Shown piece by piece: positions 41,719-59,237 of a DNA stretch of 59,237 nucleotides. The notes below the pieces were generated by a model. It ran no database searches. It was given only the letters and a program-made list of their open reading frames with translations, and had not been told where the DNA came from. Made by a program: the position numbers and the translations under genes. Position 1 is the stretch's first letter; each line of letters opens with the position of its first letter. The stretch covers positions 1 through 59,237 of the forward strand of contig NZ_JAGQBF010000018.1 in the NCBI RefSeq assembly GCF_024345495.1, read 5' to 3'. Source of the DNA: Synechococcus sp. RedBA-s (GTDB taxonomy: Bacteria; Cyanobacteriota; Cyanobacteriia; PCC-6307; Cyanobiaceae).

Positions 41719-41735
41719 CAGCGACGATCCCGGGC

Positions 41736-43147: not shown

Positions 43148-44166
43148 CGCAGTGGCAGCCAGGGGCCGATCGCCAGCCCCAGCGCCAGGCCGAGGCCATT
43201 GAAGGCCTGGAAGCGCAGGGCCAGAAACTTGCTACCGCCGATCCGCTCCGGGGCGTCGTGGTGCTCGCGCAGCAACTGGATCAGGGCCCTGGCGGCGGGC
43301 AGGCCCACCATGCCCAGCAGGGCCGTGAGTGGCCAGCGGCCCAGCAGCACCGGCGCCCACTGCAGGGCCAGGGTCAGGGCGATGAACCAGGGGACCAGGG
43401 CGGCGGCGCCGGCGGTGCCCAGCTTCACCACCGGCGAGAGCTTGCCGTGGCTGGCGTCCTGCTCCACCTGGTGGAAATGGGAGCAGAACAGCACCAGGGT
43501 GGTGGCCAGGGCCGGACCACTGCCCAGCAGCAGGGCGGCCCTCCAGGGGATCCCGGCGGCAGGCAGCGGATCGCCCAGCCCGGCGGCAGCCGTGGGCGCG
43601 AGCGCCAGCAGGGCGGCGGCGGTGGCCAGCGGGCCAAAGGCCAGCCAGCACAGCGGCTCACCCAGGCCGCGGTAGCCCAGCCGCAGAGGAGGTCCCTGGT
43701 AGGCGTAGCCGAGGGCGCAGCAGCCCAGCACCAGCGCCAGCACCAGGGGGGTGCTGCGGGCCGCCACCAGGGCGAACAGGGCCAGGCCGATCACCAGGCA
43801 GCCGTTGGCGAGCAGCGCCACCCGGTCGCGGCGGCCAGTGAGATTCACCAGGGAATGGGGCTTGCCGAGCCGGTCCACGCCGGTGTCGGCATCAAAGACG
43901 TCGTTGGCCAGGTTTTCCCAGGCCAGCAGCAGCACCGCCGCCACCAGGAAGGTCAGCAACTGATCCAGGCGCGGCGCCTGGCCCTGGCCGGCCCACCAGC
44001 CCGCGGCCAGCAGCACCGGCATCACCGCCACCGAGTACATCGGCCATTTGATCGCCGCCTTCCAGAGGCGACGGCGGGCCGGATCGTGGGAGCGGTCGGC
44101 GGGCGAGAGACCACCGCTGGAGTCCCCATCGGCGTAACGGCTTGCGACGACCTGGGGGTCGGACAT
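43144..44166 (-). CDS. menA: 1,4-dihydroxy-2-naphthoate phytyltransferase
   Basis: 340 aa UbiA-family prenyltransferase with about eight membrane helices. The Asp-rich substrate motif is seen in ENLANDVFDADTGVDRLGKP, and the second motif region LGYRGLGEPLCWLAFGPLAT near residue 175. It adds the phytyl chain to DHNA, giving demethylphylloquinone for PSI. First gene of the minus-strand operon; divergent from menF with 75 bp between starts. Confidence 0.92.
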   Translation of the reverse strand: MSDPQVVASRYADGDSSGGLSPADRSHDPARRRLWKAAIKWPMYSVAVMPVLLAAGWWAGQGQAPRLDQLLTFLVAAVLLLAWENLANDVFDADTGVDRLGKPHSLVNLTGRRDRVALLANGCLVIGLALFALVAARSTPLVLALVLGCCALGYAYQGPPLRLGYRGLGEPLCWLAFGPLATAAALLALAPTAAAGLGDPLPAAGIPWRAALLLGSGPALATTLVLFCSHFHQVEQDASHGKLSPVVKLGTAGAAALVPWFIALTLALQWAPVLLGRWPLTALLGMVGLPAARALIQLLREHHDAPERIGGSKFLALRFQAFNGLGLALGLAIGPWLPLR

Positions 44167-44241
44167 GGGCTACAGGGACGGCGAACCGGGAAGGGCCCAT
44201 ACATTTGAGCAGTTTCCCTGGCCACCGCCGCCGTCGTCCTG

Positions 44242-45675
44242 GTGCAGGTCGTTCCTTCCTTCACCGAACTGCTCGCCGCCGCCGCCCAGGGGGCACGGCA
44301 GCTGGAGGAGGAGGGCGTGCTCAGCCTGGCGCTGCCCATGCCCTGCCGGGATCCCCTGGCACTGCTCCCCCTCCTCGATGACGGCGGACGCTTCCGCTTT
44401 CTCTGGGACGGCGCACCGGGACTCTGCCTGGCCGCCAGCGGCACCACCCATCGCCTGGAGCTGAGCGGACCGAGGCGCTTCGAGCTGGCCCAGCGCTTCA
44501 GCGCCATGAGCCTCAGCCGCCTGGGGCAACAGCCCCAGAACGTGCCGCCCCTGGCCAGGCCGCGGGTGCTGCTGGCCTTCTCCTTTTTCGACAGTCCCCT
44601 GCAGGAGGGCAGCGGCACCGTTGCCGGCGTACAGGCCGTGCTGCCCCGCTGGCAGCTGAGCCGCCAGGGACGCCACTGCTGGCTGCGGCTGCAGCGCTGC
44701 ATCGGCGGTGATGTCACCCCCCGCGGCGTGGCCGAGGAACTCTGGGAGCGGGCCCAGCTGCTGAGCCGGCTGCCCGCCGACGGCGATGTCGGGCCGGCGC
44801 CCCACCCCAGGGTGGGCATCACCAGCCGGTCCTGCTGGGAAAGCGACTACCGCGAAGCGATGCGTAAGGCCCTGGCCCTGGTGGAGGAGGGATCCCTGCG
44901 CAAGCTGGTGGTGGCGGTGCGCCAGCAGGTGGGGCTGGATCAACCGCTGGAGCCCCTGGAGATGCTGGCCCGCCTGCGCCGTCACCAACCGGGCAGCTGC
45001 CGCTTCCTCTGGCAGCAACGTCCCGGCGACGCCCTGATCGGCGCCTCCCCCGAGCGGCTGCTGGCGGTGCGCCAGGGGCAACTGCGCTGCGATGCCCTAG
45101 CGGGCACCGCCCCGCTTGGACCACCGGCCGAGCAGCTCACCCAATCGACCAAGGACCGCCATGAGCATGAACTGGTGGTGGAGGCGATCACCCGGGTGCT
45201 CTCGGAGGCGGGCCTAACGCCTCGGAGGCCCCGCCGTCCGCGGCTGGCCCGCCACGGCAGGCTGGTCCATCTACACACCCCCATCACCGCCGCCCTGGCA
45301 GAGCATCAGCCCCTGGCCCTGGCCGAGGCCCTGCATCCCACCCCGGCGGTGGCGGGGCTGCCACGGCGGGAAGCGATGGCCTGGTTGCGCAGCCTCGAAC
45401 CATTTGAGCGGGGCCACTACGCCGCACCGATCGGCTGGATCGACAGTGCCGGCGATGCCGAGCTGCGGGTGGCGATCCGCAGCGGCCGCCTTCACGGCAA
45501 CACGCTCGAGCTCACCGCAGGCGCCGGGCTGGTGCGAGGGTCCGAGCCAGAGCGGGAACTCCAGGAAGTGGCCCTGAAGCTGGGGGTGCTGCAGCAGCAA
45601 CTCGATCTTCCGCTGGAACCCTCCATCCTTCGGGGTGGCCAGCCCCATGGCGAGCGGACGTCCTGGTGGGGATGA
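44242..45675 (+). CDS. menF: Isochorismate synthase
   Basis: 477 aa chorismate-binding enzyme, first committed step of phylloquinone synthesis. C-terminal motifs: CRFLWQQRPGDALIGASPER, DALAGTAPLGPPAEQLTQST, SKDRHEHELV-type block, HYAAPIGWIDSAGDAELRVA and GAGLVRGSEPERELQE. Start is a GTG at 44242. Its stop overlaps the start of the patatin-like gene (ATGA at 45672). Confidence 0.93.
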   Translation: MQVVPSFTELLAAAAQGARQLEEEGVLSLALPMPCRDPLALLPLLDDGGRFRFLWDGAPGLCLAASGTTHRLELSGPRRFELAQRFSAMSLSRLGQQPQNVPPLARPRVLLAFSFFDSPLQEGSGTVAGVQAVLPRWQLSRQGRHCWLRLQRCIGGDVTPRGVAEELWERAQLLSRLPADGDVGPAPHPRVGITSRSCWESDYREAMRKALALVEEGSLRKLVVAVRQQVGLDQPLEPLEMLARLRRHQPGSCRFLWQQRPGDALIGASPERLLAVRQGQLRCDALAGTAPLGPPAEQLTQSTKDRHEHELVVEAITRVLSEAGLTPRRPRRPRLARHGRLVHLHTPITAALAEHQPLALAEALHPTPAVAGLPRREAMAWLRSLEPFERGHYAAPIGWIDSAGDAELRVAIRSGRLHGNTLELTAGAGLVRGSEPERELQEVALKLGVLQQQLDLPLEPSILRGGQPHGERTSWWG

Positions 45676-47411
45676 GCGGCAGCAACGAACCCATCGGCAG
45701 CCTGCCTTCAAGCGCCGACGGTCTATCCCCAGAGCGGCGCCTCCAGAGGGTCTTTGCCAGCTCTCGACTGTTCCGAACCATCCCGCCCGAGTGCCTAAAA
45801 GCCCTGAATCCACATCCGCTCAGCCTCGTGGAGGGGCAGCTGCTCTTCAGGGAAGGTGACAGGGCCGAGCTCGCGTATGTGATCGAGTCGGGCATCCTCG
45901 GCCTGTTCAACGGCCCTCTGAGCCCCAGCACGGCGTGGTTCCGGAAAGTGGTGCGCGGGGATCTGGTGGGGGAATACGGACTGCTGGGCGATGAGCCACG
46001 GTCGGCCTCGGCAATCGCACTCACCGACCTGAGCATCTTTGGCTTCAACCTGGAGAATCTGCGCAAGCTGTTGTCACTGTCGGAAGAGCTTCAATCGCTG
46101 CTGATCACAACCCTGGCGGATGCGGCCTCGATCGGACGTGACCCGCGACGATCGGCTCTGGGCACGATCCTGATTCACAACGCCAGCCCAGACTCCCCCC
46201 TTACCCAGCGGGTCCTAGAGGGGTTGCCAGAGCTGCTGATCAGCCAGGCTGCCGGTGCAATCTCACTGGGCAATGCCCCCCTCCTCAGCCCCTCCACCAA
46301 TGAAGAAGATCTCCATCTGGAGCTGACCCAGGCCACCGGAGCGGGCCGGGTCAGGGTGTTTCTCACGCAAGCTCCAGAGCTGCTGAGCTCCCGCAATCAG
46401 AAGCTGCTCGACCGGCTGGTGATCCTCACGGACGGGACCGCGGATCACGTCCAGATTCCAGAATCAATCAAAGCGGAGTGCATTCTGGTGCGGCTCTGGC
46501 CGAGCGAGCAGGAGCGCCCCAGCTCGAAGCCCTGGTGCAGCGGCAGGCGCGTCTCCTTCGTGCTCAATGTCCGGGCCGGCCAGCTCAGCCATCTGCAGCG
46601 GCTGGCCCGAACGGTGTTGCGTCGTCAGAACGTGCTGGTGCTTGGCGGGGGAGGGGCCAGGGGATTTGCCCATGTGGGAACGATCGCGGCGTTGCAGGAG
46701 CGCCGGACCGATGACATCGACATGGTGATGGGGGTCAGTATCGGAGCGCTGGTGTCGTCGCTGGCCGCCTTCGATCTCAAGGCCGAGGAGATTCTCGGCC
46801 ACCTCGAGCGAGTGATCATCCGTTCACGGCCCTACTCGCTCACCCTTCCGCGCCAATCACTCTTCTCACTGGTCAACTCCGAACGTGAACTCAAGGCCTT
46901 CTTCGGCAGCTCGCGCGTCGAGGACAGCTGGCTGGTGCTGCAGTGCTTCTCCACCAACCTCTCCACCAATCAGCTGCATGCCTGGACCACCGGCGACATC
47001 CCCACCGCCGTGGTGGCCAGCATGTCGGTGCCGGGAATCTTCCCACCCGTGGAAGATGCCACGGGAAACCTGCATGTGGATGGGGGAATCCTGAACAACC
47101 TGCCAATCGCTCCGGCCCGTGCTCTCACCGACGGGCGGATCATTGCGGTATCGCTAGATGTAGAGCCAGATTCGGCAAACAACTATGGTCCGGGTCGCAA
47201 GCGGCAGCGCCCTTCACTGGCTAAAACTCTGATCAATGCGATGATGTGTGCCTCCCACTCCACATCCCAATCCCAGGAGCGATTGGCCGATCTCGTGCTC
47301 AAGCCGGAGATCGGCCACATTCCCTTTCTGGAGTGGAAGAGTTATATTCAGAGTTTCGAGGCTGGCTACAGCCATGCCCGTGAAGCCCTTTCCTTGGTGG
47401 AGGAGTCTTGA
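45672..47411 (+). CDS. cNMP-binding patatin-like phospholipase (NTE-like)
   Basis: 579 aa. N-terminal cyclic-nucleotide-binding domain about residues 15-140 (VEGQLLFREGDRAELAYVIE). Patatin domain from about residue 315: oxyanion loop VLGGGGARGFAHVGTIAALQ, nucleophile GVSIGALVSSLAAF (G-x-S-x-G), and catalytic Asp in VDGGILNNLPIAPA. The combination resembles neuropathy-target-esterase-type lysophospholipases. It overlaps menF by 4 bp, and a DUF962 gene follows. Confidence 0.92.
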   Translation: MSGSNEPIGSLPSSADGLSPERRLQRVFASSRLFRTIPPECLKALNPHPLSLVEGQLLFREGDRAELAYVIESGILGLFNGPLSPSTAWFRKVVRGDLVGEYGLLGDEPRSASAIALTDLSIFGFNLENLRKLLSLSEELQSLLITTLADAASIGRDPRRSALGTILIHNASPDSPLTQRVLEGLPELLISQAAGAISLGNAPLLSPSTNEEDLHLELTQATGAGRVRVFLTQAPELLSSRNQKLLDRLVILTDGTADHVQIPESIKAECILVRLWPSEQERPSSKPWCSGRRVSFVLNVRAGQLSHLQRLARTVLRRQNVLVLGGGGARGFAHVGTIAALQERRTDDIDMVMGVSIGALVSSLAAFDLKAEEILGHLERVIIRSRPYSLTLPRQSLFSLVNSERELKAFFGSSRVEDSWLVLQCFSTNLSTNQLHAWTTGDIPTAVVASMSVPGIFPPVEDATGNLHVDGGILNNLPIAPARALTDGRIIAVSLDVEPDSANNYGPGRKRQRPSLAKTLINAMMCASHSTSQSQERLADLVLKPEIGHIPFLEWKSYIQSFEAGYSHAREALSLVEES

Positions 47412-47416
47412 TCACG

Positions 47417-47716
47417 ATGCTGGACGGACGACCCTGGAGTGAATGGATCGATCGCTACGAGCGGAGCCATCAACACCCGCTGAACCGCACCTGCCATCTC
47501 ATCGGCATCCCCCTGATCGTGATCTCCGTCGGAGCAGCAGCCCTGGCCATCTGGAGACCAGGGCTTTGGGCCCCTGCCCTCGGGCTGTTCCTGGCCGGCT
47601 GGGCTTTCCAGTTCGCCGGTCACGCCGTGGAGGGAACCTTGCCGGAGTTCATGGGCGACCCTCGCTTTCTATTGGTGGGGCTGCGGTGGTGGCTGGGGGC
47701 GATCAGGCGAAGCTGA
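47417..47716 (+). CDS. DUF962/Mpo1-like protein
   Basis: 99 aa from the ATG at 47417; GGAGGAG at 47399-47405 is its likely ribosome-binding site, 11 bp away. A TTG at 47408 is also in frame but too close to it. Motifs fit DUF962: YERSHQHPLNRTCHLIGIPL and GWAFQFAGHAVEGTLPEFMG, with His residues that bind iron in the eukaryotic Mpo1 dioxygenase. In yeast Mpo1 acts on 2-hydroxy fatty acids; here lipid function is inferred, supported by flanking phospholipase and desaturase genes. Confidence 0.8.
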   Translation: MLDGRPWSEWIDRYERSHQHPLNRTCHLIGIPLIVISVGAAALAIWRPGLWAPALGLFLAGWAFQFAGHAVEGTLPEFMGDPRFLLVGLRWWLGAIRRS

Positions 47717-47741
47717 GCAACAGCCTTGAACCAGACAGAGC

Positions 47742-48770
47742 TCAGAGCAGAAGAGCAACCCCCTCGGCGTAGTTGTTCACCGTGGGTAGCGGCGGATGGC
47801 CGTGGCTAGAGAGCACGGCTTCAGCGATTGCCGTGGCCTGAGGCAATTTGTCGTAGGGAATGGAGGGGTAGGCGTGGTGAAGGGAGTGATGGGGCAGTCC
47901 TCCCATCAGCAGATTCACCAGAGTGCCGGCGGCAATGTTGCGGGTGCTGTAGAGCTGCGTGAGTTCGTAGGTAGAGAAGCGCTTCCAGAGGCCATGGTGC
48001 TCGATCATGCCGCGCACCTGCATCAGCGCTCCCACCACCCGCTCCACCACCACCAGCATCAACAACAGCTTGATCACCTGACCATGGCCGATCGCCCAGG
48101 TGAGCATCGCGGCCTGCACCACCAAGATCCCGATCAGATCACTGACCATGCCGCCCATCAACCGGGATTGGCTGTCGCGCAGCTTCCAGCCGAACCAGAT
48201 CATGGAGCCGATCAACTGGATGCCCCCAAGCACCAGAACGCTCAGCCAGAAAGGATGCCTGAAATGGAGCCGCCGCCACGAGCCGGCCCTGGCGAGTTCC
48301 TCTTCGGACGGTTCTCGTCGTTCCGGATCGCGCAGATCCATCCCGTTCATGCGGTGGTGGAGCTGATGCAGATTGCGGTAGGTGCGATAAGGCCAGGCCA
48401 CCGGCCAGCTCAGGACACATCCCAGGGCCTGCTCGGCGCTGCCGAGATCGATCAGGCTGGCGTGGCTGATGTCGTGGGTGCTGATCATCACGAAGGCGTA
48501 GAACACGGCCGCTGCCAACAACCAGAGAACTGCCACCGGCAGATAGGCCTCCCGGACATACATCACGAGGCAGGCCAGGGCCGGGAGGAGCAGGAGAAGG
48601 AGCCGACACCAGCCCAGGGCACGGTTCACCTTGAACAGAGGTTGAACCGCGTCCTCGATCTCTTCAGTCATCAACCGGTCAGCCCGCCGGCTTGCCTTCT
48701 TCGTGGCGTCATCCCTGCTGGCGAGGGTGTCGCTCTGATCGGGATGGATCGGGAGGGAATCGGAGCTCAT
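47742..48770 (-). CDS. Fatty-acid desaturase-family protein
   Basis: 342 aa from the ATG at 48770 (MSSDSLPIHPDQSDTLASRD). The three His boxes are visible: HDISHASLIDL, HQLHHRMNGMDL, and GLPHHSLHHAYPSIPYDKLP. Several hydrophobic segments surround them. It should be a di-iron membrane desaturase or hydroxylase; carotenoid or lipid substrates are both possible. A truncated second copy lies at 32489-32932. The frame extends upstream to 48917, but that part has no similarity. Confidence 0.85.
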   Translation of the reverse strand: MSSDSLPIHPDQSDTLASRDDATKKASRRADRLMTEEIEDAVQPLFKVNRALGWCRLLLLLLPALACLVMYVREAYLPVAVLWLLAAAVFYAFVMISTHDISHASLIDLGSAEQALGCVLSWPVAWPYRTYRNLHQLHHRMNGMDLRDPERREPSEEELARAGSWRRLHFRHPFWLSVLVLGGIQLIGSMIWFGWKLRDSQSRLMGGMVSDLIGILVVQAAMLTWAIGHGQVIKLLLMLVVVERVVGALMQVRGMIEHHGLWKRFSTYELTQLYSTRNIAAGTLVNLLMGGLPHHSLHHAYPSIPYDKLPQATAIAEAVLSSHGHPPLPTVNNYAEGVALLL

Positions 48771-48816
48771 CGGTCCCGCACGGGATGATTCAGCTGCAGA
48801 GTAGTTCGAGTTCCTT

Positions 48817-49830
48817 TCAGCTCGCCAACAGCGCCTCGATGCTGAGATCCGCCAGGGGCACGCCGCCCAGCCGCTCGATCTCGCGCACGCCCGTGGGACT
48901 GGTGACGTTGATCTCACTGAGGCGACCAGCGATCACATCGATGCCCACGAAGAACAGCCCGGCAGCGCGCAGGGCCGGTGCCAGCTCAGCGCAGATGCGG
49001 CGCTCGGCGTCGGTGAGGGCCGTGGCCTCGGGCTCCCCACCCACCGCCAGATTGCTGCGGAACTCCCCAGGCGCTGGGCGCCGGTTCACCGCGCCCAGCG
49101 GTTCACCATTCACCAGCAGGATGCGCTTGTCGCCCGCCACCACTTCGGGCAGGAAGGCCTGGGCCATCACCGGCAGCTGCCCCTGGTGGGTGACCAGCTC
49201 CAGCAGCGCCCGCAACCCCGGTGCCCGCGCTTCGCTGCGCACCACACCCTGGCCGGCACGTCCACCGAGGGGTTTGAGCACCACCTCGCCGTGCTCGGCG
49301 ACAAAGGCCGAGAGCTGCTCGATGTTGCCGCTCACCAGGGTGGGCGCCATCAGATGGCTGAAACGCATGGCGCCGAGCTTCTCGTTCCAGGCCCGCAGGG
49401 AGGCCGGCCGGTTGAGCACTCGCACTCCAGCCTGCTCCGCCAGCTCCAGCAGGTGGGTGGCATAGAGGTAAGCCTCGTCCACGGGCGGATCCTTGCGCAT
49501 CCACACCCAGGGGAAGGCGTCGAGCGGCAACCGCTGTGGTTCCCCCAGCTCCACCCAGGGCTCAGGAATCTCCCAACCGGCCGGAGTGGGGCGGATCTCG
49601 GCGAGGCGGGCGGGCTGGGTCAGCACCGTGGGGCGGTGACCAGGCTGAGTGGCATCGGCTCGCTGCCCTTCCACCGCCAAATCGGCCAGGCCGCAGATCC
49701 AGACCTGATGGCCGGCGCGCTGGGCCGCCTGCATCAGGGCCACGCTCGAATCCTTGACCGGACGCAGACGCTGGATCGGATCGATGACAAAGAGGTGGGA
49801 ACGGCTGGCGGCCTCGGCTCGGCTCGGCAC
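48817..49830 (-). CDS. gshB: Glutathione synthetase
   Basis: 337 aa ATP-grasp ligase joining gamma-glutamylcysteine and glycine. N-terminal [23 protein letters not shown]-grasp motifs [20 protein letters not shown] and [20 protein letters not shown]. grxC lies 3 bp upstream on the same strand, giving a glutathione and glutaredoxin operon. Confidence 0.95.
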
Positions 49831-49832
49831 CT

Positions 49833-50105
49833 TCAGGCCCCTTTCAGCAACGGATCGAGCCGGCCGGCCCGCTCCATGGAATGGAGTTCATCGCAACCGC
49901 CGATGCCCCGGTCGTCGATGAAGATCTGGGGCAGGCTGGAGCGGCCTTCCGCCCGCTGGGCCATGGCGGCGCGGGCCGTCTGATCCCCATCGATGGAGTG
50001 CTCCTCGTAGGCCACACCCTTGCGATCGAGCAGGGCCTTGGCCCGCACGCAGAAGGGGCAGAAGCGCCAGGTATAGATCTCAACTTTCGCCGGTGTGTTC
50101 ACCAC
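49833..50105 (-). CDS. grxC: Glutaredoxin 3
   Basis: 90 aa thioredoxin-fold protein. Active-site CPFC in [20 protein letters not shown], cis-Pro loop [20 protein letters not shown]. It reduces disulfides with glutathione supplied by the adjoining gshB. It is divergent from prfB, separated by about 70 bp that include a GC-rich hairpin-like stretch. Confidence 0.94.
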
Positions 50106-50176
50106 AATCGCCCAGGTGCATGGCAGTGGCGGGATCCTAGAATCCCCGCCTGGAGCCCACCCCCGCTGATACGGTC

Positions 50177-51326
50177 GTGAAAACCGTTGGGCGGCAGCCG
50201 GTGCTCGATCTCACCGATTTCAAACGCGACCTCTCCGAGCTCACCGACCGCCTGGGCCATGCCCAGGACTGTCTTTGACGTACCGGCCCTGAACGCCCGC
50301 CAGCAGGACCTGGAGCAGCTGGCCTCCCAGCCCGACTTCTGGGACGACCAGCAGCAGGCCCAGAAACAGATGCGCCAGCTCGATGAGGTGAAGGCCCAGC
50401 TGGAGCAGCTTCAGCAGTGGCGCAGCGCTGTAGACGATGGCCGCGCCACCCTCGAGCTCTACGACCTCGAAGCGGATGAGGAGCTCCTGGCCGAAGCCAA
50501 CGGCGGCCTGCAGAGCCTCAAGGCCGCCCTCGATCGCTGGGAGCTGGAGCGCCTGCTGAGCGGCCTCTACGACAAGGAGGGCGCCGTGATCTCGATCAAT
50601 GCCGGCGCCGGCGGCACCGACGCCCAGGACTGGGCGCTGATGCTGATGCGCATGTACACCCGCTGGGCCGAGGACCACGGCATGAAGGTGTCCGTCGATG
50701 AGCTCTCGGAAGGGGAGGAAGCGGGCATCAAGAGCTGCACGATCGAGATCGACGGCCGCTACGCCTACGGCTACCTGCGCAATGAGAAGGGCACCCACCG
50801 ACTGGTGCGGATCTCGCCGTTCAACGCCAATGACAAGCGCCAGACCAGCTTCGCAGGGGTGGAGGTGATGCCGATGCTCGATGAGGACGTCAAGCTCGAC
50901 ATCCCCGACAAGGACCTGGAGATCACCACCTCCCGCTCCGGCGGTGCCGGCGGTCAGAACGTCAACAAGGTGGAAACGGCGGTGCGCATCCAGCACTTGC
51001 CCACCGGCCTGGCGGTGCGCTGCACCCAGGAGCGCTCCCAGCTCCAGAACAAGGAGAAGGCGATGGCGCTGCTGATGGCCAAGCTGCTGGTGATCGCCCA
51101 GGAGCAGCGGGCCTCGGAGATCGCCGACATCCGCGGCGACATCGTCGAAGCGGCCTGGGGCAACCAGATCCGCAACTACGTCTTCCACCCCTATCAGATG
51201 GTCAAGGATCTGCGCACCGCCGTGGAGACCACCGATGTGCAGGGCGTTATGGACGGCGACCTCGACCCCTTCATCCAGGCCCTGCTGCGCCAGGGTGTGG
51301 AGATCGCCGCCGATGGGGACACCTGA
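50177..51326 (+). CDS. prfB: Peptide chain release factor 2 with programmed +1 frameshift
   Basis: Releases protein at UGA and UAA. The first segment (GTG at 50177 or 50201, residues such as [20 protein letters not shown]) ends at an in-frame TGA (50276-50278) within CTTTGAC. Reading continues in the +1 frame as [15 protein letters not shown] to the stop at 51326. The recognition tripeptide SPF ([16 protein letters not shown]) and the GGQ ([15 protein letters not shown]) confirm RF2. This is the classic autoregulation: low RF2 favours the shift. Confidence 0.95.
50264..50279 (+). promoter_or_regulatory. Programmed +1 frameshift site in prfB
   Basis: CTT TGA C at 50273-50279 is preceded by AGGA (50264-50267), a Shine-Dalgarno-like stimulator. 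The ribosome slips one base at CTT when RF2 is scarce, skipping the T at 50276 and reading GAC next. Confidence 0.9.
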
Positions 51327-51343
51327 GCCCTGCCGATTTCCCC

Positions 51344-51568
51344 ATGACTGACAGCACGACCCCCCTGGAGCCCAGCCCAGCCCCGACTCCGGAGGTTGCA
51401 ACTCCTGAGGTTGCAGCCAGCCCGCCGCCCAGCTTCGTGAAGCTGGCGATGCGCAACATGGTGCGCAAGGGCCGCCAGAGCCTGCTGCATTTCGGGCTCA
51501 CCGCCGTGGGCTTCAGCACCGTTCTCTTTCTGCTGGCCTGGTTCGGTCGGCCCAGCCTGCCCCAGTGA
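51344..51568 (+). CDS. DUF3285 family protein
   Basis: 74 aa. The family signature PPSFVKLAMRNMVRKGRQSL occupies residues 27-46 and is followed by one transmembrane helix (FGLTAVGFSTVLFLLAWFG). DUF3285 is restricted to cyanobacteria; function unknown. It lies between prfB and ybeY and overlaps the ybeY start by 4 bp (51565-51568). Confidence 0.85.
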   Translation: MTDSTTPLEPSPAPTPEVATPEVAASPPPSFVKLAMRNMVRKGRQSLLHFGLTAVGFSTVLFLLAWFGRPSLPQ

Positions 51569-52173
51569 CGGCCGCTCCACCCGACCTCGACCTGGCCTTC
51601 AGCTGCGATGAAGAGCTGAGCGCCCTGTTGCTGGAGGAGGCTGGCCAGCTGGCCGACCCCGCCAACGCCGAAGGGCCGTGGAGTGATCTGCTGGCGGCCT
51701 GGCTGGAGCAGCTGCAGCCCGAGTTGCCCCAGGCCCTGCGGGCGCCTGCCTACAGCCTCGGGCTGAGCCTGGTGGGCGACGGGGAGATGGCCGAGCTCAA
51801 TGCCAGCTGGCGAAGCCAGCAGGGCCCCACCGATGTGCTGGCCTTCGCCGCCCAGGACGAGGGGCTGGAGGGAGCTCCGGCGATGCCGAAGCCACCGAAG
51901 CAGGCCGCTGATCAGGCGTTGGCCGAGCAGCGGGAACCGCTTGAGCTGGGCGACATCGTGATTTCCCTGGACACAGCGGCCCGTCAGGCCGAGGCGGCGG
52001 GCATGAGCCTGGCGCGGGAGCTGCGTTGGCTGGCCAGCCACGGCCTGCTGCACCTGCTGGGCTGGGACCACCCCGACGACGCCCGCCTGGAGGCCATGCT
52101 GCGCCGCCAGGACCAGCTGCTGGAGAGCAGACCCTGTAGCGACGGCAGCGTGCCCCCTGGACGGCAGCGGTAA
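51565..52173 (+). CDS. ybeY: Endoribonuclease YbeY
   Basis: 202 aa single-strand RNase and 16S rRNA maturation factor. The zinc-binding motif H-x3-H-x5-H is seen as [20 protein letters not shown] near residue 160. Upstream core [20 protein letters not shown] and [20 protein letters not shown] are typical. The start GTG/ATG region overlaps the DUF3285 stop. dgkA follows 47 bp downstream, a common cyanobacterial arrangement (ybeY-dgkA). Confidence 0.93.
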
Positions 52174-52220
52174 CGTTCAACCCGGACGCGCGCAGCAGCG
52201 GAACGCCAGCAGGAGGCAGC

Positions 52221-52694
52221 ATGGTCAACCCGGTCCCCCTCGAACCGGTGCCCCTCGCGCTGGCGGATCCCATGAGCAGCGATTCCCCTCGTCGGGGGCG
52301 GAGCCAGCGCAGCGGGGCCTGGCGGGTGGCCGGCGACCTGCCCCTGAGTTTTCGCTATGCCGCCCAGGGCCTGGCCTATGGCTTCATCAGCCAGCGCAAC
52401 TTCCGCATCCATGCGATCACCGGCGGCTGCGTCTTTGCCCTGGGGGTGTGGCTGCGGCTGAGCACCGAACAGCTGGCGCTGCTGGTGCTCACCGTGGCGG
52501 CGGTGCTGGTGCTGGAGCTGATCAACACGGCCATCGAGTCGGTGGTGGATCTGGCCATCGGCCGCCGCTTCCATCCCCTGGCCCGCATCGCCAAGGACTG
52601 CGCCGCTGCCGCCGTGCTGGTGGCAGCAGTGGCCTCGCTGCTGATCGCCGCGCTGCTGCTGCTGCCGCCCCTGCTGCTGCGCCTGGGCGTTTGA
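52221..52694 (+). CDS. dgkA: Diacylglycerol/undecaprenol kinase (DgkA type)
   Basis: 157 aa. Small membrane kinase with three helices. Motifs: [20 protein letters not shown] with the conserved Asn and Arg, and [20 protein letters not shown], the metal- and ATP-binding helix. A possible later ATG at 52272 removes an unconserved N-terminus. Recycles lipid or undecaprenol precursors. It is followed by the glutamine amidotransferase 23 bp later. Confidence 0.92.
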
Positions 52695-52717
52695 ATGGAG
52701 CACTGGCGGCTGGCCTG

Positions 52718-53350
52718 ATGCTCCTGGTTCTCGACAACTACGACAGCTTCACCTTCAACCTGGTGCAGTACCTCGGCGAACTGGCGGCGAAGCACCCGAT
52801 CGCCGCTGACCTGCGGGTCGAGCGCAACGACGCCCTGAGCGTCGATCAGATCAGAGTCCTGCAGCCGGCGGCGATCCTGATCTCACCGGGCCCTGGCGAC
52901 CCCGACCAGGCTGGGGTTTGCCTGGATGTGATGCGGGAGCTGGGACCGACTGTGCCGACCCTGGGGGTTTGCCTGGGTCACCAGTGCCTGGCCCAGGCGT
53001 TCGGCGGCCGGGTGGTGCGAGCCGCTGAGCTGATGCACGGCAAGACATCCCCGGTGCTGCATGGGGGACTAGGTGTGTTCGCCGGCCTGCCCAGCCCGCT
53101 CACAGCCACCCGCTACCACAGCCTGATCGCGGAGCGGGCCAGCTTGCCGGAGGAGCTGGAGATCAGCGCCTGGCTGGAGGACGGCACGATCATGGGCCTG
53201 CGCCACCGCCACTTCCCGATCGAAGGCGTCCAGTTCCACCCCGAGAGCGTGCTCACCCAGAACGGCCACCAACTGCTGGCCAACTTCCTGCGCCAGGCGA
53301 CCCAGCACCAAGCCGGCGGCGCCAGAGCGCTCACCGGAACCCCCTGCTGA
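52718..53350 (+). CDS. Glutamine amidotransferase, anthranilate/aminodeoxychorismate synthase component II
   Basis: 210 aa class I glutamine amidotransferase. The N-terminus [20 protein letters not shown] is diagnostic for TrpG/PabA. The nucleophile Cys is in [15 protein letters not shown], and the His/Glu pair in [12 protein letters not shown]. It supplies ammonia to chorismate for tryptophan and folate; many cyanobacteria share one subunit for both. No synthase component I is adjacent. Confidence 0.9.
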
Positions 53351-53414
53351 AAGCCCCGGGGCAACGCTGCTAGGTTCGCGCCACGATCGGCGCCTGCGGG
53401 GCGCACCAGCAGGC

Positions 53415-54200
53415 ATGGTCTCCGCATCAGGGCAACCGCACGACGGCCCCTCCAGCTCCGTCAGCAGGCCCCTTCACCGCCGGGCAACAGCCGTGGGCGC
53501 TGCGTCCCTGATGGCGGCTGTGAGTCTGGGTGTGCCTGGCGCCGGGCTGGCCGCCGGTGGCGTCACGGTCACCAGCTACGGCCACAGTGCTCTGCTGATC
53601 CAGGGCGGTGGTGCCACGGTGCTGGTCAATCCCTTCAAGGCCGTCGGTTGCGCCGCCGGCCTGAGCGAGCCGCGGGTGCGCGCCGATGTGATCCTGGCCA
53701 GCAGCCGGCTCCCGGATGAGGGCGCCCCGGTGGCCTCCGGCCGGATGCTGGTGACCCCCGGCTCCTACCGGGTGGCGGGCCTGAAGCTGGAAGGAGCCGC
53801 CATCCCCCACGACCGCGTCGGCGGACGGCGCTTCGGCCAGGCCACCCTCTGGCGCTGGAAGCAGGGCGGCCTGGAAATCGCCCACCTGGGCGGCACGGCC
53901 TCGGCCCTGCGCCCCGAAGACCGGGTGCTGATCGGCAAGCCCGATGTGTTGATCATCGGTGTGGGCGGTGGCGCCAAGGTCTACAACGGAGCCGAGGCGG
54001 CGGTCGTGGTGCGTGCGCTCGAGCCCCGGCGGGTGATCCCGGTGCAATACGTGAGTGGCAGCGCCCCCGCCGGCTGCGACCAAGGCAGCATCGAACCCTT
54101 CCTCGAAGCGATGAGCGGCACGCCGGTGCAGCGGGTGGGACGCACGGCGAGCTTCAGCGCTCCCCTCAGCGATGGGCTCCAGATCAAGGTGTTGCGCTGA
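53415..54200 (+). CDS. MBL-fold-like protein lacking the classic metal motif
   Basis: 261 aa. An N-terminal RRATAVGAASLMAAVSLG looks like a twin-arginine-type signal. Beyond it the fold starts as in UlaG-type metallo-beta-lactamase proteins (VTSYGHSALLIQGGGATVLV), but the HxHxDH motif is replaced by LASSRLPDEG. So it probably does not bind two metals in the usual way. It overlaps hisC by 17 bp at the 3' ends. Confidence 0.75.
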   Translation: MVSASGQPHDGPSSSVSRPLHRRATAVGAASLMAAVSLGVPGAGLAAGGVTVTSYGHSALLIQGGGATVLVNPFKAVGCAAGLSEPRVRADVILASSRLPDEGAPVASGRMLVTPGSYRVAGLKLEGAAIPHDRVGGRRFGQATLWRWKQGGLEIAHLGGTASALRPEDRVLIGKPDVLIIGVGGGAKVYNGAEAAVVVRALEPRRVIPVQYVSGSAPAGCDQGSIEPFLEAMSGTPVQRVGRTASFSAPLSDGLQIKVLR

Positions 54201-55347
54201 GCATCAGCGCTTCGATCGCCTGGTAGGTGTCCCAGAATCGCGCCATCTGCTCGCGGGTGCCCAGGCTCACCCGCAGAGCCCCATCGATCAGGGGCTTGCC
54301 CGCCATGGAGCGCACCAGAATGCCCGCCTGGCGCAGCTCAGCCTCCACCGTCGCCTCCGGCCTGGCGGGCCAGATCAGCAGGTAGTTGCCGCCAGCGGCG
54401 TGGTGGCGCACAGCAGCGGACTGGAGTTGCTCCAGCAGCCAGGCCCTGGCGCGCAGCACTTCGGAGACATAACCATCCACATAGGCCTGATCCGCCAAGG
54501 CGGCGCAGGCGGCCGTGACGGCAAAGCTGTTGATGTCATAGGGACCGGTCACGCGGCTGATCCGGTCCACCAGGGCCGGCGCGCCGATCGCGAAGCCGAT
54601 GCGCAGACCCGCCAGGCCGGCGGTCTTGGCCAGGGAACGCAGCACCACCAGGTTGGGCGTGGCGGCGAAGTCGGCAGTGGGCAGCACGCTGTCGCCGGTG
54701 AAGGCCTCATAGAGCTCATCCACCACCACCAGGGTGCGCGGCGCGGCGGCTGCCAGCTCGAGGATCCGCTCAGGCGCCAGGCGGGTGCCGGTGGGGTTGT
54801 TGGGGTTGCAGAGCAGCAGGATCCGCGGCGGATGCCAGTCGCCGCTCGGTTCGCCACCACCACCGGGACCGAGAAGCGCCGCGCGGATCTCCTCGAGAGG
54901 AAAGCCGAAGTCAGGCAGCCGGTAGGGCAACGCCTCGATCGTCATGCCCTGCATGCGAGCGCAGGGGGTGTAGTAGCCGAAGGTGGGACTGGTGGTGAGC
55001 AGCCGATCGCCCGGGCCGCCGTAGGCATGAAACACGGCATGGAGGGCGGCATCGACACCGTTGAACAGGCCGATGTGGGCCGGGCTCAGGCCCATCCCAC
55101 CCAGAGAGGCCACCACCGCTTCGCGCAGGCCGTCGTACTCGGGATAGATGGCGTAGTGGTCGGCGGGGATGGCACGGATCGCTTCCACCACCTTCGGGCT
55201 GGGGCCCACGGTGTTCTCGTTGAAGTCGAGCCGAAGCAGCCCGCGGCGGCCTTCCAGCGGCGCGCTGTAGGCCACCAGGGCCTCCACCTCGGGCCGGGCC
55301 TGGGGACCATCAGGCAGGCAAGCGGTCAAAGCGGTGCGAGACGACAA
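54184..55347 (-). CDS. hisC: Histidinol-phosphate aminotransferase family
   Basis: 387 aa from a TTG at 55347. PLP fold type I: the N-terminal RLDFNENTVGPSPKVVEAI, the Asn motif CNPNNPTGTRLAPERI, and the PLP lysine in VLRSLAKTAGLAGLRIGFAI. The frame could extend to an ATG at 55470, but those extra residues lie antisense to a decayed integron integrase and match nothing in HisC. It acts in histidine synthesis; a related aminotransferase role is possible. Confidence 0.85.
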   Translation of the reverse strand: MSSRTALTACLPDGPQARPEVEALVAYSAPLEGRRGLLRLDFNENTVGPSPKVVEAIRAIPADHYAIYPEYDGLREAVVASLGGMGLSPAHIGLFNGVDAALHAVFHAYGGPGDRLLTTSPTFGYYTPCARMQGMTIEALPYRLPDFGFPLEEIRAALLGPGGGGEPSGDWHPPRILLLCNPNNPTGTRLAPERILELAAAAPRTLVVVDELYEAFTGDSVLPTADFAATPNLVVLRSLAKTAGLAGLRIGFAIGAPALVDRISRVTGPYDINSFAVTAACAALADQAYVDGYVSEVLRARAWLLEQLQSAAVRHHAAGGNYLLIWPARPEATVEAELRQAGILVRSMAGKPLIDGALRVSLGTREQMARFWDTYQAIEALMLSATP

Positions 55348-55397
55348 CCGCAGGCAGCGTAGGAAGCGAGGTGGATGAAGGACGCAGACCCGATCCG

Positions 55398-55576
55398 CCA
55401 AGCGGGGCTCAGTGCACCTTCCGACAGTCGATTGCCACCCATCGGCTGGAGTGTGGAAGATCAACCGCACGATCTAGGAGTTGATGGAGTCCAGCGACGT
55501 GAAGACCACGATGATCGACACCCATGTGCTGAATCGAGGCCCTTGCGGGATGATGAGCCTAGTGGAACTTCTGTAG
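55398..55576 (+). pseudogene. Degenerate integron integrase (IntI) C-terminal remnant
   Basis: Three frame segments read in order like the IntI C-terminus. The first is IRQAGLSAP (about 55393-55419); the second is TFRQSIATHRLECG (55416-55457), echoing HTxRHSFATHLLExG; the third is INRTI, a TAG stop, then ELMESSDVKTTMIDTHVLNR (55478-55537). Families normally read LGHSDVKTTMIYTHVLNRG. There are at least two frameshifts and a nonsense codon, and the catalytic Tyr before THV is Asp here, so it is dead. It lies in the same direction as the cassettes and overlaps the antisense of the upstream extension of hisC. Confidence 0.75.
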
Positions 55577-55747
55577 CAAAATGAACATATGGTTCGCGGA
55601 CCCACCGATCTTTCCCTCACCCAGGGGCGATACCACGCAAATGCCATACGCTGGAGGGAGTTCCAGGATCAGGCCCACAGTCAGGAGGCGTCTTATACGG
55701 CCGCAGAGCCCCGTGTCGGATGGATACCGGACCCGCCGAAATACTAG
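55577..55747 (+). other. Presumed attI or secondary insertion site of the integron
   Basis: 171 bp between the integrase remnant and the first cassette, without a credible gene. The first cassette joins at G^TTATGC, with the G at 55747. The preceding AATACTA lacks the palindromic arms of an attC, so the site is either attI or a secondary insertion site; which one cannot be decided here. Confidence 0.45.
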
Positions 55748-55777
55748 TTATGCCCCATTGAGATTAAAGGTTTGCCC

Positions 55778-57382
55778 ATGCTCAAAAACTACAAGTTAAC
55801 TTTGCCGACAAAAGACAAAGGCAACATCGAAATTGAAACCTCAAACAGTTTGTTGCTCGTCGGCGCGAATGGGGCGGGTAAAACAAGACTCGGTAGCTGG
55901 ATTGAGTTCAGTTCTCCGGACGCGGCGCGCGTCCACAGAATTTCCGCTCAAAAATCTCTGACCATGCCAGACACTTCGACGCCAACAGCACTCGATTTGG
56001 CGGAGACGGATCTTCTATTCGGCAACCCGACTCACGGGAGGCAAAACAAGCAGGCATATCGCTGGGGTGATAAGCCCGCTGTTTCATTCCTAAGCGACTT
56101 CCAGAAGCTGATGGTCTATCTCTTCTCCGACCACACGGAAGAAAGCGCAAAATATTTAGCCGCCTCGAAATCAACTGATATTCGCGTAAGCCCACCAATA
56201 ACAAAGCTAGATCAGGTGAAGGCCGTTTGGGAAAGAATTCTGCCGCACAGAAGGTTAATCATTGGCGGCCTCAAGATTGAAACGTCAGTTGCAAGCGACG
56301 ATACCAAGAAATACAACTCGTCAGATATGAGTGATGGAGAGAGAGTAGTTTTTTACCTCGTAGGTCAGTGTTTAGCAGCGCCCCTGAACGGAATCGTTGT
56401 AATTGACGAGCCAGAGTTGCATTTGCATAAATCCATTCAAACCCCACTCTGGACAGAGATAGAACGTCTACGGCCGGATTGCCTGTTTGTCTATCTCACT
56501 CACGATGTTGATTTTGCAGCAGCTAAAGAAAGCGCCAAGAAGATCTGGCTAAAATCCTTTGATGGAACGACGTGGGACTGGGAGCCTTTTAGTCCAAGCG
56601 ACGACATTCCAGAAGATCTACTTCTCGAGATACTTGGCAGCAGGAAGCCGGTGGTGTTTGTCGAGGGAGTGAACGGGAGTTACGACTCCGCCCTTTACGC
56701 AGCAGTCCTAAAGGATTTTCTTGTAATTCCTGTAGGCAGCTGCTCTCAAGTCATTCAGTCGGTAAAAGCGCTAAAGAAGAACAACCAGCTTCATCATTTG
56801 GACGTATATGGACTTATTGATCGTGACAGGCGGGTTGCCGTTGAGATTCAGAAGCTAGAGGAAGGCGCAATCTTCGTTCTCTCAGTTGCTGAGGTCGAGA
56901 ATCTTTTTTGCGTTCGGGAAGTTCTGGCCGTAGTTAGCAACCGATTGGCGCGCGATGTCAATGCTGATTTTCAGACGGTTTCTGAAGCAATATTCAACCG
57001 TCTGCAAGCAGAACTCGAAGCACAAGTTTCGCTCAGAGCCGTGAGCGAAATTAAATTTCAACTCAACATGCTGGACGAGAAACAAAAAGGTCCTGTCGCA
57101 CTGAAGGCAGCCTTGCAATCGTTAGCAAATGGCATCGATGTAGACGCCATATATTCTCAGGCACTAACTGCATTTAACCAAGTGATCTCTGCGAAGGACT
57201 TTGAGGGCCTGCTAGCACTCTACAATCGCAAGTCTCTGTCCTCACAAGCTAGTGGAGCACTTGGCTTGGCTAATGGTGGCCTACCGGAGTTGGTTGTTCG
57301 ACTCGCCAAGGGCGATCATTGCAACGAAATATCTGATGCATTAAGAAAATATTTCGGGAATTTCGCAGCGCACATTGCGTAA
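55778..57382 (+). CDS. ABC-type ATPase fused to DUF4435 domain (PARIS/OLD-like defence candidate)
   Basis: 534 aa from the ATG at 55778, with AAAGG 7 bp upstream (a TTG at 55772 is also in frame). N-terminal ATPase about residues 1-270: Walker A LLVGANGAGKTRLGSW, signature SDMSDGERVVFYLVGQCLAA, Walker B VVIDEPELHLHKSIQTPLW and switch His in LTHDVDFAAA. C-terminal DUF4435/TOPRIM-like part: VVFVEGVNGSYDSALYAAVL, YGLIDRDRRVAVEI (D-x-D) and VAEVENLFCVREVLAVV. This joins the two parts of PARIS (AriA and AriB) in one protein. First gene of cassette 1; AT-rich compared with the host. Confidence 0.88.
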   Translation: MLKNYKLTLPTKDKGNIEIETSNSLLLVGANGAGKTRLGSWIEFSSPDAARVHRISAQKSLTMPDTSTPTALDLAETDLLFGNPTHGRQNKQAYRWGDKPAVSFLSDFQKLMVYLFSDHTEESAKYLAASKSTDIRVSPPITKLDQVKAVWERILPHRRLIIGGLKIETSVASDDTKKYNSSDMSDGERVVFYLVGQCLAAPLNGIVVIDEPELHLHKSIQTPLWTEIERLRPDCLFVYLTHDVDFAAAKESAKKIWLKSFDGTTWDWEPFSPSDDIPEDLLLEILGSRKPVVFVEGVNGSYDSALYAAVLKDFLVIPVGSCSQVIQSVKALKKNNQLHHLDVYGLIDRDRRVAVEIQKLEEGAIFVLSVAEVENLFCVREVLAVVSNRLARDVNADFQTVSEAIFNRLQAELEAQVSLRAVSEIKFQLNMLDEKQKGPVALKAALQSLANGIDVDAIYSQALTAFNQVISAKDFEGLLALYNRKSLSSQASGALGLANGGLPELVVRLAKGDHCNEISDALRKYFGNFAAHIA

Positions 57383-57445
57383 CGGGGCGCTCTTTTCTCA
57401 CGTGCGCACAGCCCTTGAGCAATGGCACGTTGGGGTTCACTGGGT

Positions 57446-57508
57446 GGGGCATAACAATTCATTCAAGCCGAAGCCGCTTCGCGGCTCGGCTTAACTCAGC
57501 CGTTGGAA
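57446..57508 (+). repeat. Integron attC site of cassette 1
   Basis: R'' GCATAAC (57449-57455) and R' GTTGGAA (57502-57508) bound the site. The hairpin arms AAGCCGA (57465-57471) with TCGGCTT (57486-57492) and GCCGC (57473-57477) with GCGGC (57481-57485) pair around loop TTC, with one extrahelical A at 57472. Sequences such as AACAATTCATTCAAGCCGA and GGCTTAACTCAGCCGTT match the classic 57-60-bp attC consensus. R'' is the exact complement of GTTATGC at the cassette start (55747). Confidence 0.93.
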
Positions 57509-57534
57509 GGACAATCTGACCTTATACTCTGGAT

Positions 57535-58368
57535 ATGAAGTCATCTGACCTGTTCCCCGAGATAGCCCAAGCTCTTGCCGCTGATGTTGAGAGTGCGTCG
57601 TCGGATTCAAAGCGGCTAAAGCTTCGCACCCTGCTGGCCAAGTTTGGCTACGAGAAGAGATCAGACAGTAATACCGCAGAAATTACTAGGGTTCTAAGCG
57701 AAGCGGGCCTCACTGTTAATCCGCCTTTGGTGAGGTATGGCGACAGCTGGGAGATCAGCACAGAAGACTGGATTTATCTATCTATTGTCAAAGGGACACG
57801 CGAGAGTTCAGAAACGAAGCAACTTTCTCCTCCCCGAGACTGGAATTCAGATGGGTGGTTTGACAAAGTCGCTGGCCTGCTACTAAGAACTGAAAGGGAA
57901 GTAGAGATAAAATTTGCAGTTCCGCTTCTCATCCGGCTTGGATACACCGACGAGGACAGGTTTGATGGAATGCCTGTTCCAGCGTCCCACGGCTCACGCG
58001 GCTCTACCTTGGTAATTGATCACGCTGCATTCAACTCACAGCTTGATGCTTTGAAAGGCCAGCCACTATTGACAATAGAAGCCAAGCGCGATAGTTATCT
58101 GTCAAAAGCCAAGCAGCTCCAGAAAGCGCATGATCAAGCAAAAAGCTACTGCTACTGGACGCAGTGTGAATTCTTTTTGGTAACTGATGGCCAGATAGTC
58201 CATGTATACCGAGTTGGTCGCGGCAAGTTTGGTGATATTGAGCCACTCTTTGAATGCTCGCGACAAGAGCTAAAGCACAAGTTCTCAGAGCTGTTTGCGC
58301 TTGTATCCAAGGAATCCCTGGCCAGCCACTACCTCAAAAAGCTTTCATCCACCGAAGAGGCAACATGA
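57535..58368 (+). CDS. HsdR N-terminal-like PD-(D/E)XK nuclease-type protein
   Basis: 277 aa. Residues 1-95 look like a small helical regulatory part (SKRLKLRTLLAKFGYEKRSD). The C-terminal part matches the N-terminal nuclease domain of type I restriction HsdR: EREVEIKFAVPLLIRLGYTD, then the Asp in STLVIDHAAF and the E-x-K in PLLTIEAKRDSYLSKA, with Gln/Ser-rich helix residues after. No helicase is present. Sole gene of cassette 2; cassette begins 32 bp upstream, so no promoter of its own is evident and it may be read from cassette 1. Confidence 0.85.
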   Translation: MKSSDLFPEIAQALAADVESASSDSKRLKLRTLLAKFGYEKRSDSNTAEITRVLSEAGLTVNPPLVRYGDSWEISTEDWIYLSIVKGTRESSETKQLSPPRDWNSDGWFDKVAGLLLRTEREVEIKFAVPLLIRLGYTDEDRFDGMPVPASHGSRGSTLVIDHAAFNSQLDALKGQPLLTIEAKRDSYLSKAKQLQKAHDQAKSYCYWTQCEFFLVTDGQIVHVYRVGRGKFGDIEPLFECSRQELKHKFSELFALVSKESLASHYLKKLSSTEEAT

Positions 58369-58379
58369 CCAAACCGTTG

Positions 58380-58468
58380 CCTTCCAACATCAAGATTCAG
58401 CGGTCGGGCCTACCTGTTCTTGAATACGGCACAGAGGATCTTCCCGCCGCTGATCTTGAGCGTTAGAT
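58380..58468 (+). repeat. Integron attC site of cassette 2
   Basis: R'' TTCCAAC (58382-58388) is the exact complement of GTTGGAA at the cassette start (57502); the match extends to 9 nt. R' GTTAGAT (58462-58468) fits GTTRRRY. Arms TCAAGAT (58390-58396) with ATCTTGA (58453-58459), CAGCGG (58398-58403) with CCGCTG (58447-58452), and CGGG (58405-58408) with CCCG (58443-58446) leave extrahelical T at 58397 and T at 58404. These are the asymmetries IntI uses to choose the bottom strand. Confidence 0.92.
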
Positions 58469-58510
58469 CATGAACCTGTTAGGCTTCCTCCACAAACATT
58501 GGCGTATCAC

Positions 58511-59200
58511 ATGAGTGAGCTTATTCCTACCGGTGCGGCAAGCCAGATTCAGCTCCTAGACCCACAGGCGCAAAGAATTGTCGATTTCCTTCAGAATATT
58601 GGCCTACCTCACGAGAATATTATTGCAGCACAAGATCAACGGCAAATAATCTCACTGAATTTACCTCAGTTAGTTGAATGCTTGCCGGCGGAGGCAAAGC
58701 AAGGTGTGCGGTACCTTTCAAAGTTTGTGGTTGGGGCAGGCATAGGGTTATTTGACTATGCACTAAACTCTGTTTGGAACGAGGTTGTCCTAGATCTACG
58801 CAAAAAAGCGATTGCATACAGCCTTGACATTTTTTACGATGCCGCAGTAGGTGGCACAAAGAGAGCGTTCTACGAAAGCGAAGATGATCTGCCGGCACTC
58901 AGTGACTCAGTATTATTAAACACTTGCAGAAAGCTTGAGCTTATCAGTGACATAACTCACAAGAAGCTTAAGCATATCTTGGATATGAGGAATGATATAG
59001 GTATATCTCACCCTACAAACTATACCATCAACGCTTTTGAGCTTCTTGGATGGCTCCAGACGTGCATCCAAGATGTCTTAACTGATAGGCCAACAGAAGC
59101 GGTGACTTTCAGGGAAGGTGACACTCCTTGGCAGCCACTCAGGCAACCCGAATTAATGGTAGCGCCAGGATCGGTTCTGAGTCCTCTGGTGGCTTGTTGA
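58511..59200 (+). CDS. Hypothetical protein of cassette 3
   Basis: 229 aa from the ATG at 58511, which is 48 bp into cassette 3. The body is helical: FVVGAGIGLFDYALNSVWNE, LRKKAIAYSLDIFYDAAVGG, RKLELISDITHKKLKHILDM and MRNDIGISHPTNYTINAFEL. There is no enzyme motif I recognise. The last 35 residues change character and look unlike the rest, so the gene may be truncated or chimeric near 59100. The attC expected after it (R'' CATGATCTAAC-like) is not in the window. Confidence 0.6.
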   Translation: MSELIPTGAASQIQLLDPQAQRIVDFLQNIGLPHENIIAAQDQRQIISLNLPQLVECLPAEAKQGVRYLSKFVVGAGIGLFDYALNSVWNEVVLDLRKKAIAYSLDIFYDAAVGGTKRAFYESEDDLPALSDSVLLNTCRKLELISDITHKKLKHILDMRNDIGISHPTNYTINAFELLGWLQTCIQDVLTDRPTEAVTFREGDTPWQPLRQPELMVAPGSVLSPLVAC

Positions 59201-59237
59201 TCCACACTTCTTCCGGTTGACGCCAGCAGCGAATGCT

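Follow-up and report, generated by a model that had tools for sequence, protein, structure and literature searches.

A Single-Gene PARIS (AriAB) Protein, Probably an Anti-Phage System, in the First Cassette of a Decayed Integron of Synechococcus sp. RedBA-s

Introduction

The closest described relatives of the gene studied here belong to the PARIS anti-phage systems. In the two-gene form, as in Escherichia coli B185 (structures 8ux9 and 8v45), an ABC ATPase, AriA, accompanies a separate DUF4435/Toprim nuclease, AriB. A hexamer of AriA holds three AriB, and in response to triggers such as Ocr, AriB forms dimers that cleave tRNA (PMC11455837; excerpts of PMC12409363). The same excerpts of PMC12409363 describe an AriB that AriA sequesters and that a trigger frees, state that its activation is unresolved, add that it seems to be activated and not simply released, and report that the Toprim mutant E26A is inactive. 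According to excerpts of Rousset et al. 2022 (PMC9122126), 5.2% of genomes have ariAB, either as two genes or fused into one. Single-gene fusions (AAA_21 and DUF4435) share their domain order and full-length profile with the protein described below, whose vehicle, a cyanobacterial integron cassette, is a difference that goes unmentioned in those excerpts.

Defence genes that are trimmed in size and borne by integrons are also known (Darracq, Kieffer and Getz 2025, through excerpts of PMC12409362, PMC12444791 and PMC13064858). Like the cassettes in these excerpts, the one described here is a small defence-gene cassette, in this case in first position; it differs from them by its cyanobacterial host and by an intI that reads towards the cassettes. 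An intI of that orientation is also found in Treponema, where it groups with those of Synechococcus and others (excerpts of PMC3607928). The word PARIS is absent from the text of PMC12409362 and PMC12444791, and no PARIS integron cassette was among the best literature matches; the 2025 studies could contain one. Protein and vehicle are thus each of a known kind, and the literature searched held no description of the two together in such a host.

Results

A Fused PARIS Protein

The window, by which we mean the whole stretch of 59,237 bases that was analysed, is the entire contig C10 of the host genome (G000). A preliminary description, made from the letters of the sequence, had proposed that one of its ORFs joins an ABC ATPase to a DUF4435/TOPRIM-like half, and the Pfam domains and motif residues found at 55778-57382 agree with this (Table 1). 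The frame opens with an ATG at 55778, closes with a stop at 57380-57382 and has no internal stop. An ABC ATPase occupies about residues 1-270 and a DUF4435/Toprim nuclease about 289-534. Two Pfam matches were above cut-off, AAA_21 (E = 1e-11) and DUF4435 (E = 3.9e-18, residues 289-422), the latter placing the C-terminal half far above background; AAA_15 (1e-4) fell below it. A linker of 46 residues separates the AAA_21 match, which ends at 242, from the DUF4435 match, which begins at 289. Where the preliminary description had spoken of a "PARIS-like" protein, the kinship proved stronger: the best PADLOC model was AriAB (PDLC02982, single-gene PARIS), with an E-value of 1.1e-209 over residues 2-531.

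The ATPase half carries Walker A (GANGAGKT, 29-36), the signature MSDGER (184-189), Walker B with D210/E211 and the switch H242, while the Toprim motifs are E296-G297, D348-x-D350 and E372/E374-N375. In an alignment of 12 sequences that spans homologues down to 32% identity, G29-G32, G34-T36, D210, E211, H242, E296, D348, D350, E372 and E374 are invariant, the sole exception among the motif positions being Walker A residue 33 (A, S or other). The motifs are mostly kept in a wider set of 25 sequences, in which the distant L089 and L096 have a divergent ENL motif and other sequences differ at single positions. A PADLOC search with nine of the other 24 fused homologues gave AriAB as the sole match below 1e-30 for all nine. 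Judged from its sequence, the ORF is a member of the described single-gene AriAB (PARIS) family, since its match to AriAB is full length and its catalytic residues are kept.

The fused ATPase is compact. The distance from Walker A to Walker B is 166-207 residues in 25/25 fused homologues, compared with 340-392 in 10 two-gene AriA (the ORFs in which both motifs were found by pattern, from 22 control loci). Likewise, the signature block spans 366-429 in the solved E. coli AriA (464 aa) and 185-248 in the window AriAB. As the fused ATPase half is about 180 residues shorter between its Walker motifs than two-gene AriA, its trigger and assembly may differ, and we infer that sensing or ring contacts would be altered.

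Table 1. Features of the integron locus in the window.
Feature	Position	Strand	Evidence
Aminotransferase gene, presumably hisC-like, chromosomal neighbour of the integron locus	54184..55470	-	ORF
Integron integrase remnant (C-terminal end), reads towards cassettes	55415..55558	+	blastn, tblastn, TIGR02249
attI region; crossover between G55747 and T55748	55560..55749	+	homology to C45
Integron gene cassette 1, 1755 bp, carries AriAB	55748..57502	+	start/R'' complementarity, 11 bp
Fused PARIS protein AriAB, 534 aa	55778..57382	+	PADLOC AriAB, Pfam DUF4435 and AAA_21
attC of cassette 1, short	57449..57508	+	scan, fold, plasmid matches
Integron gene cassette 2; ORF 57535-58368	57503..58462	+	signature GTTGGAA, 9 bp
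attC of cassette 2, host type	58382..58468	+	scan, fold, by-eye likeness
Cassette 3 start; ORF 58514-59200; ends with contig	58463..59237	+	follows second attC

An Integron Gene Cassette

A mobile cassette in a cyanobacterium had also been proposed, its type left unsaid. The cyanobacterial host agrees with fused genes in genomes of the same class, whose match equals exactly that of named Pseudanabaena and Synechocystis records. The attI crossover, the attC and the complementarity of start and end support the cassette and identify it as an integron gene cassette. Upstream of it, 55415-55749 matches contig C45 with 72% identity (blastn), over the attI there and the 3' end of its intact intI. This homology stops at ACTAG^TT, the attI crossover, and the last 29 bp of the window attI are 96.6% identical to the end of the C45 attI. 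The intI remnant was recovered by tblastn in two pieces (262-275 and 279-309) and matched TIGR02249 with an E-value of 1.8e-5, which another tyrosine recombinase might give as well. At E ≤ 0.001 this model had matches in 14/14 control genomes, none of them above cut-off, so that weak partial matches alone prove little and the DNA match to C45 is the stronger evidence for the remnant.

The ends of cassette 1 are complementary over 11 bp (GTTATGCCCCA / TGGGGCATAAC). Its start, GTTATGC, pairs with the R'' GCATAAC of its own attC, which is found 66 bases past the AriAB stop (the signature scan covered 120 bases downstream at all loci). Complementarity of at least 8 bp between start and R'' occurred in 36/514 ORFs (loci of at least 3 kb, repeats included), and those of exactly 8 bp include evident chance matches such as window 24933-26705. 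The attC of cassette 1 forms 7/8 L pairs, and shuffled sequences folded at least as well in 2/200 cases for the bottom strand and 1/200 for the top. A stricter attC scan of 40000-59237 returned this site and that of cassette 2 only, and the same scan had no match in one strand of 300 kb of simulated sequence; looser scans have a background of 0.2-0.5 per 10 kb. The ORF of cassette 2 matches Pfam HSDR_N_2 (E = 3.4e-6), a type I restriction family, and is possibly another defence cassette. No Pfam match was found for the ORF of cassette 3, where the array is interrupted by the end of the contig at 59237.

The Locus in the Host Genome and Its Relatives

The host genome has one IntI above cut-off, on C45, which scores 461.9 bits where the cut-off is 265. 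Five other matches are partial, one of them inside the window. Partial intI matches were seen on contigs C19, C50, C59 and C6 (L010-L013), and on C50 an attC of the host type adjoins the intI fragment by eye. The genome may hold several decayed integrons.

All nine genomes of the genus have an IntI above cut-off and a match to the stretch on the side of the aminotransferase gene, which we take to be hisC-like. This side was compared in five of the eight genus relatives. By tblastn, an intact IntI lies beside hisC in G157, a partial one in G182 and a short remnant in G035, and no IntI was found at the loci of G102 and G170. Looser attC scans gave three candidates at the G182 locus and none at those of G157 (9.5 kb around the intact IntI), G035, G102 and G170. 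Most simply, the window locus would be a decayed copy of a chromosomal integron on the hisC side.

The AriAB profile (E ≤ 1e-60) matched 4/400 family genomes, the host included, and 0/8 other genomes of the genus. The gene is therefore accessory, present in 1/9 genus genomes, and does not behave as a housekeeping gene at a fixed position, which the preliminary description had named as a finding that would speak against it. IntI was present in 42/201 genomes.

Signs of a Foreign Origin

The GC content is 48.1% in AriAB, 49.3% in the ORF of cassette 2 and 46.1% in that of cassette 3, compared with 66.6% in window 1-55400. Low GC is thus a property of the array as a whole, shared by cassettes 2 and 3, and not peculiar to PARIS. 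What does set PARIS apart is its attC: matches of 80-99% identity occur in at least 5000 plasmid records, and the two such records that were inspected are arrays of resistance cassettes (fosE, aadA1, VIM-2, IMP-1). From these matches, the attC is of a kind that resistance cassettes of class 1 integrons carry. The attC of cassette 2 had no match among the plasmid records and by eye resembles attC sites on C45 and C50. These observations point to, but do not prove, an origin of the PARIS cassette outside the host lineage.

A phage-gene origin of AriAB was considered and set aside: among viral contigs, nine stretches matched a pattern and none was confirmed as a close relative, and the one phage match was a partial one of 28% to an Oenococcus phage (two records).

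Fused Homologues

We assembled 25 fused homologues: four from the survey of family genomes, five of the six loci from a second search, and the rest from the top three of 50 plasmid records and the fused matches of two further searches. The plasmid records outside this set came from Agrobacterium, Parabacteroides, Rhizobium, Campylobacter, Psychrobacter, E. coli and others. L023 (partial), L090 and L094 (no tblastn match) were dropped, as were repeats of the same place (L014-L017, L044, L046, L048, L049, L057, L082, L083, L088, L099, L100, L127-L129, L131-L133, L135, L136); L028/L046 and L018/L048, each with an identical match, were merged as one.

A cassette start/end signature of at least 9 bp is carried by 9/25 fused homologues, namely those of the window, Thiomicrorhabdus, Thalassotalea, Marinobacter, Pseudoalteromonas, G140, G234, G581 and G926; in G926 the hairpin is present and R' is unclear by eye. 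Three more (the Synechocystis plasmid, G005 and G955) have partial signs, by eye or as an upstream attC, and in 13/25 no cassette sign was counted. A weak attC-like match 181 bases upstream in L084 was scored as no cassette. IntI was above cut-off in 8/12 and 6/13 of the genomes or records with fused genes, including some with a cassette-less fused gene (Pseudanabaena, G549, G603 and G656).

Between Thiomicrorhabdus, Thalassotalea and Marinobacter, DNA similarity of 77-80% runs from 0-5 bases before the cassette start to 3-4 past R''. In L020 (7593-7740) and L022 (7575-7720) similarity is lost 3-4 bases past R'' and the signature is kept, with the attC hairpin absent; the third cassette-like fused copy, L019, unlike these two, has the hairpin. 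The ratio dN/dS is 0.04-0.07 between gammaproteobacterial copies, a rough value as dS exceeds 1 in every pair, and purifying selection acts on these related copies. For the window AriAB dS is saturated and gives no ratio.

On the tree, cassette state changes seven times, at least six of them by well-supported branches; the mean of shuffled states is 7.6, and 196/500 shuffles do as well as the tree. With seven changes scattered over the tree, we reject, for this sample, a single cassette origin followed by plain vertical inheritance.

Two plasmid loci have further neighbours. Near the fused PARIS gene of the Synechocystis plasmid, a gene of the dihydrofolate reductase family (L028, 9075-9620) has a 10-bp cassette signature, and no IntI was found on this plasmid. 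On a Paraburkholderia plasmid (L026, 3363-7638), genes for an AAA ATPase and a DUF4435 protein lie directly upstream of the fused PARIS gene.

Unfused Loci as a Control

As a control we used 22 unfused DUF4435 loci (21 cyanobacterial, one gammaproteobacterial), with the upstream ORF visible in 21. Their DUF4435 proteins measure 278-328 aa and the upstream ORF about 427-504 aa in 21/22, so that the two genes of 21 loci together encode about 705-815 residues, compared with 534 for the fused window protein. No cassette signature or attC was found by scan in any of the 22. A set of 26 unfused loci with short flanks likewise gave none; it was superseded by these 22, as the central ORF had been wrongly assigned in L045 at least and was truncated in L043.

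The difference between 9/25 fused and 0/22 unfused loci has a Fisher p-value of 0.0019; it is 0.012 in cyanobacteria only (4/12 and 0/21) and 0.083 in one evenly drawn class sample (2/9 and 0/21). The link between fusion and cassette is suggestive only, because the hosts compared are unmatched for integron ownership and the fused set is an uneven sample. Among 369 gammaproteobacterial genomes there were 10 DUF4435 matches, eight in long (fused) frames and two in short; short DUF4435 frames prevail in the cyanobacterial class sample.

Discussion

We consider it probable that the window holds a chromosomal integron of a cyanobacterium, now decayed, whose first cassette is a compact anti-phage system of the single-gene PARIS (AriAB) type. 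This reading draws on what is observed directly: the gene family with its intact catalytic motifs; at the locus, the ends of the cassette, the attI crossover and an attC that is not of the host type; on another contig, an intact integrase; and, in related gammaproteobacterial copies, purifying selection. Against it count the 13/25 fused homologues without a cassette, the lack of a detected promoter, the weak similarity to AriA, the shorter ATPase half, the poor structural model described below and the attC scans of the G157, G035, G102 and G170 loci, which gave no candidate.

By analogy with two-gene PARIS, the most likely function of AriAB is an abortive one, in which a phage protein triggers the cleavage of tRNA and the AriB part is activated in place and not released. 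The ATPase half would form a ring that keeps the Toprim nuclease half silent until a protein made by the phage triggers it. Two-gene PARIS has a separate AriB, whereas the window protein is one chain from which the AriB part cannot leave; since the nuclease is tethered, we prefer a step in which the nuclease halves pair while still attached. The paired halves would then cut host tRNA, and translation and phage growth would stop. The cassette itself would have come from another lineage; the IntI of C45, which is intact, may have placed it in trans or could still move it.

It is unlikely, but worth weighing, that AriAB is a stored, silent or dead cassette without a present function in this host. 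The IntI at the locus is decayed, and only one of the nine genus genomes has the gene. A search for sigma-70-like promoters in 55300-57600, attI included, found none where 1.9 were expected by chance, so AriAB may be silent. Nonetheless, the reading frame and catalytic residues are intact, the gene is in first position beside attI, where a promoter usually ensures expression (excerpts of PMC12409362), and dN/dS is low in related copies, the window copy being saturated in dS.

The same protein could instead be a nuclease for DNA or another target, of the OLD or retron-ATPase kind and not a tRNA cutter, with an ATPase that would sense phage DNA ends or nucleotides and a Toprim half that would cut DNA; we give this rather little credence. 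A profile search of solved structures does rank the retron Ec83 ATPase (1.4e-5) and OLD nuclease (2.5e-4) above AriA, whose match is weak (0.0034), and the Foldseek matches listed from the PDB for an AlphaFold model were led by retron ATPases and PtuA and also included heads of SMC/RecN type. That model of the monomer, from a 7-sequence alignment, was poor (mean pLDDT 58.6) and the TM-scores were near 0.2, and we dropped any structural claim for AriAB. The ATPase matches can be read as a shared ABC head: OLD, Gabija and retron-PtuA systems have a related one, but another partner or nuclease domain and profile matches far weaker than that of AriAB. Against a DNA nuclease, the C-terminal half is DUF4435 and the whole chain matches AriAB.

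That AriAB is no cassette and lies beside the integron by coincidence is very improbable: the 13/25 fused homologues without a cassette signature would allow it, but the gene is flanked by an attI crossover and by a folding attC, with 11 bp of start/end complementarity, and the stricter scan of 300 kb of simulated sequence gave no attC of this kind.

Returning to the reading of a functional PARIS cassette, a wider interpretation can be offered tentatively, as one that is possible and falls short of probable. AriAB may represent a PARIS lineage that is adapted to travel by integron, has been captured in cassettes repeatedly, in cyanobacteria and Gammaproteobacteria, and would work without release of a toxin, because its nuclease is permanently tethered. 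If true, such a lineage would show that the release of AriB is unnecessary for PARIS immunity. The fused protein, with its nuclease bound to the chain through a 46-residue linker, makes this question directly testable. The link to cassettes also describes a route by which PARIS could cross phyla, on a recombination site of the kind used by resistance cassettes.
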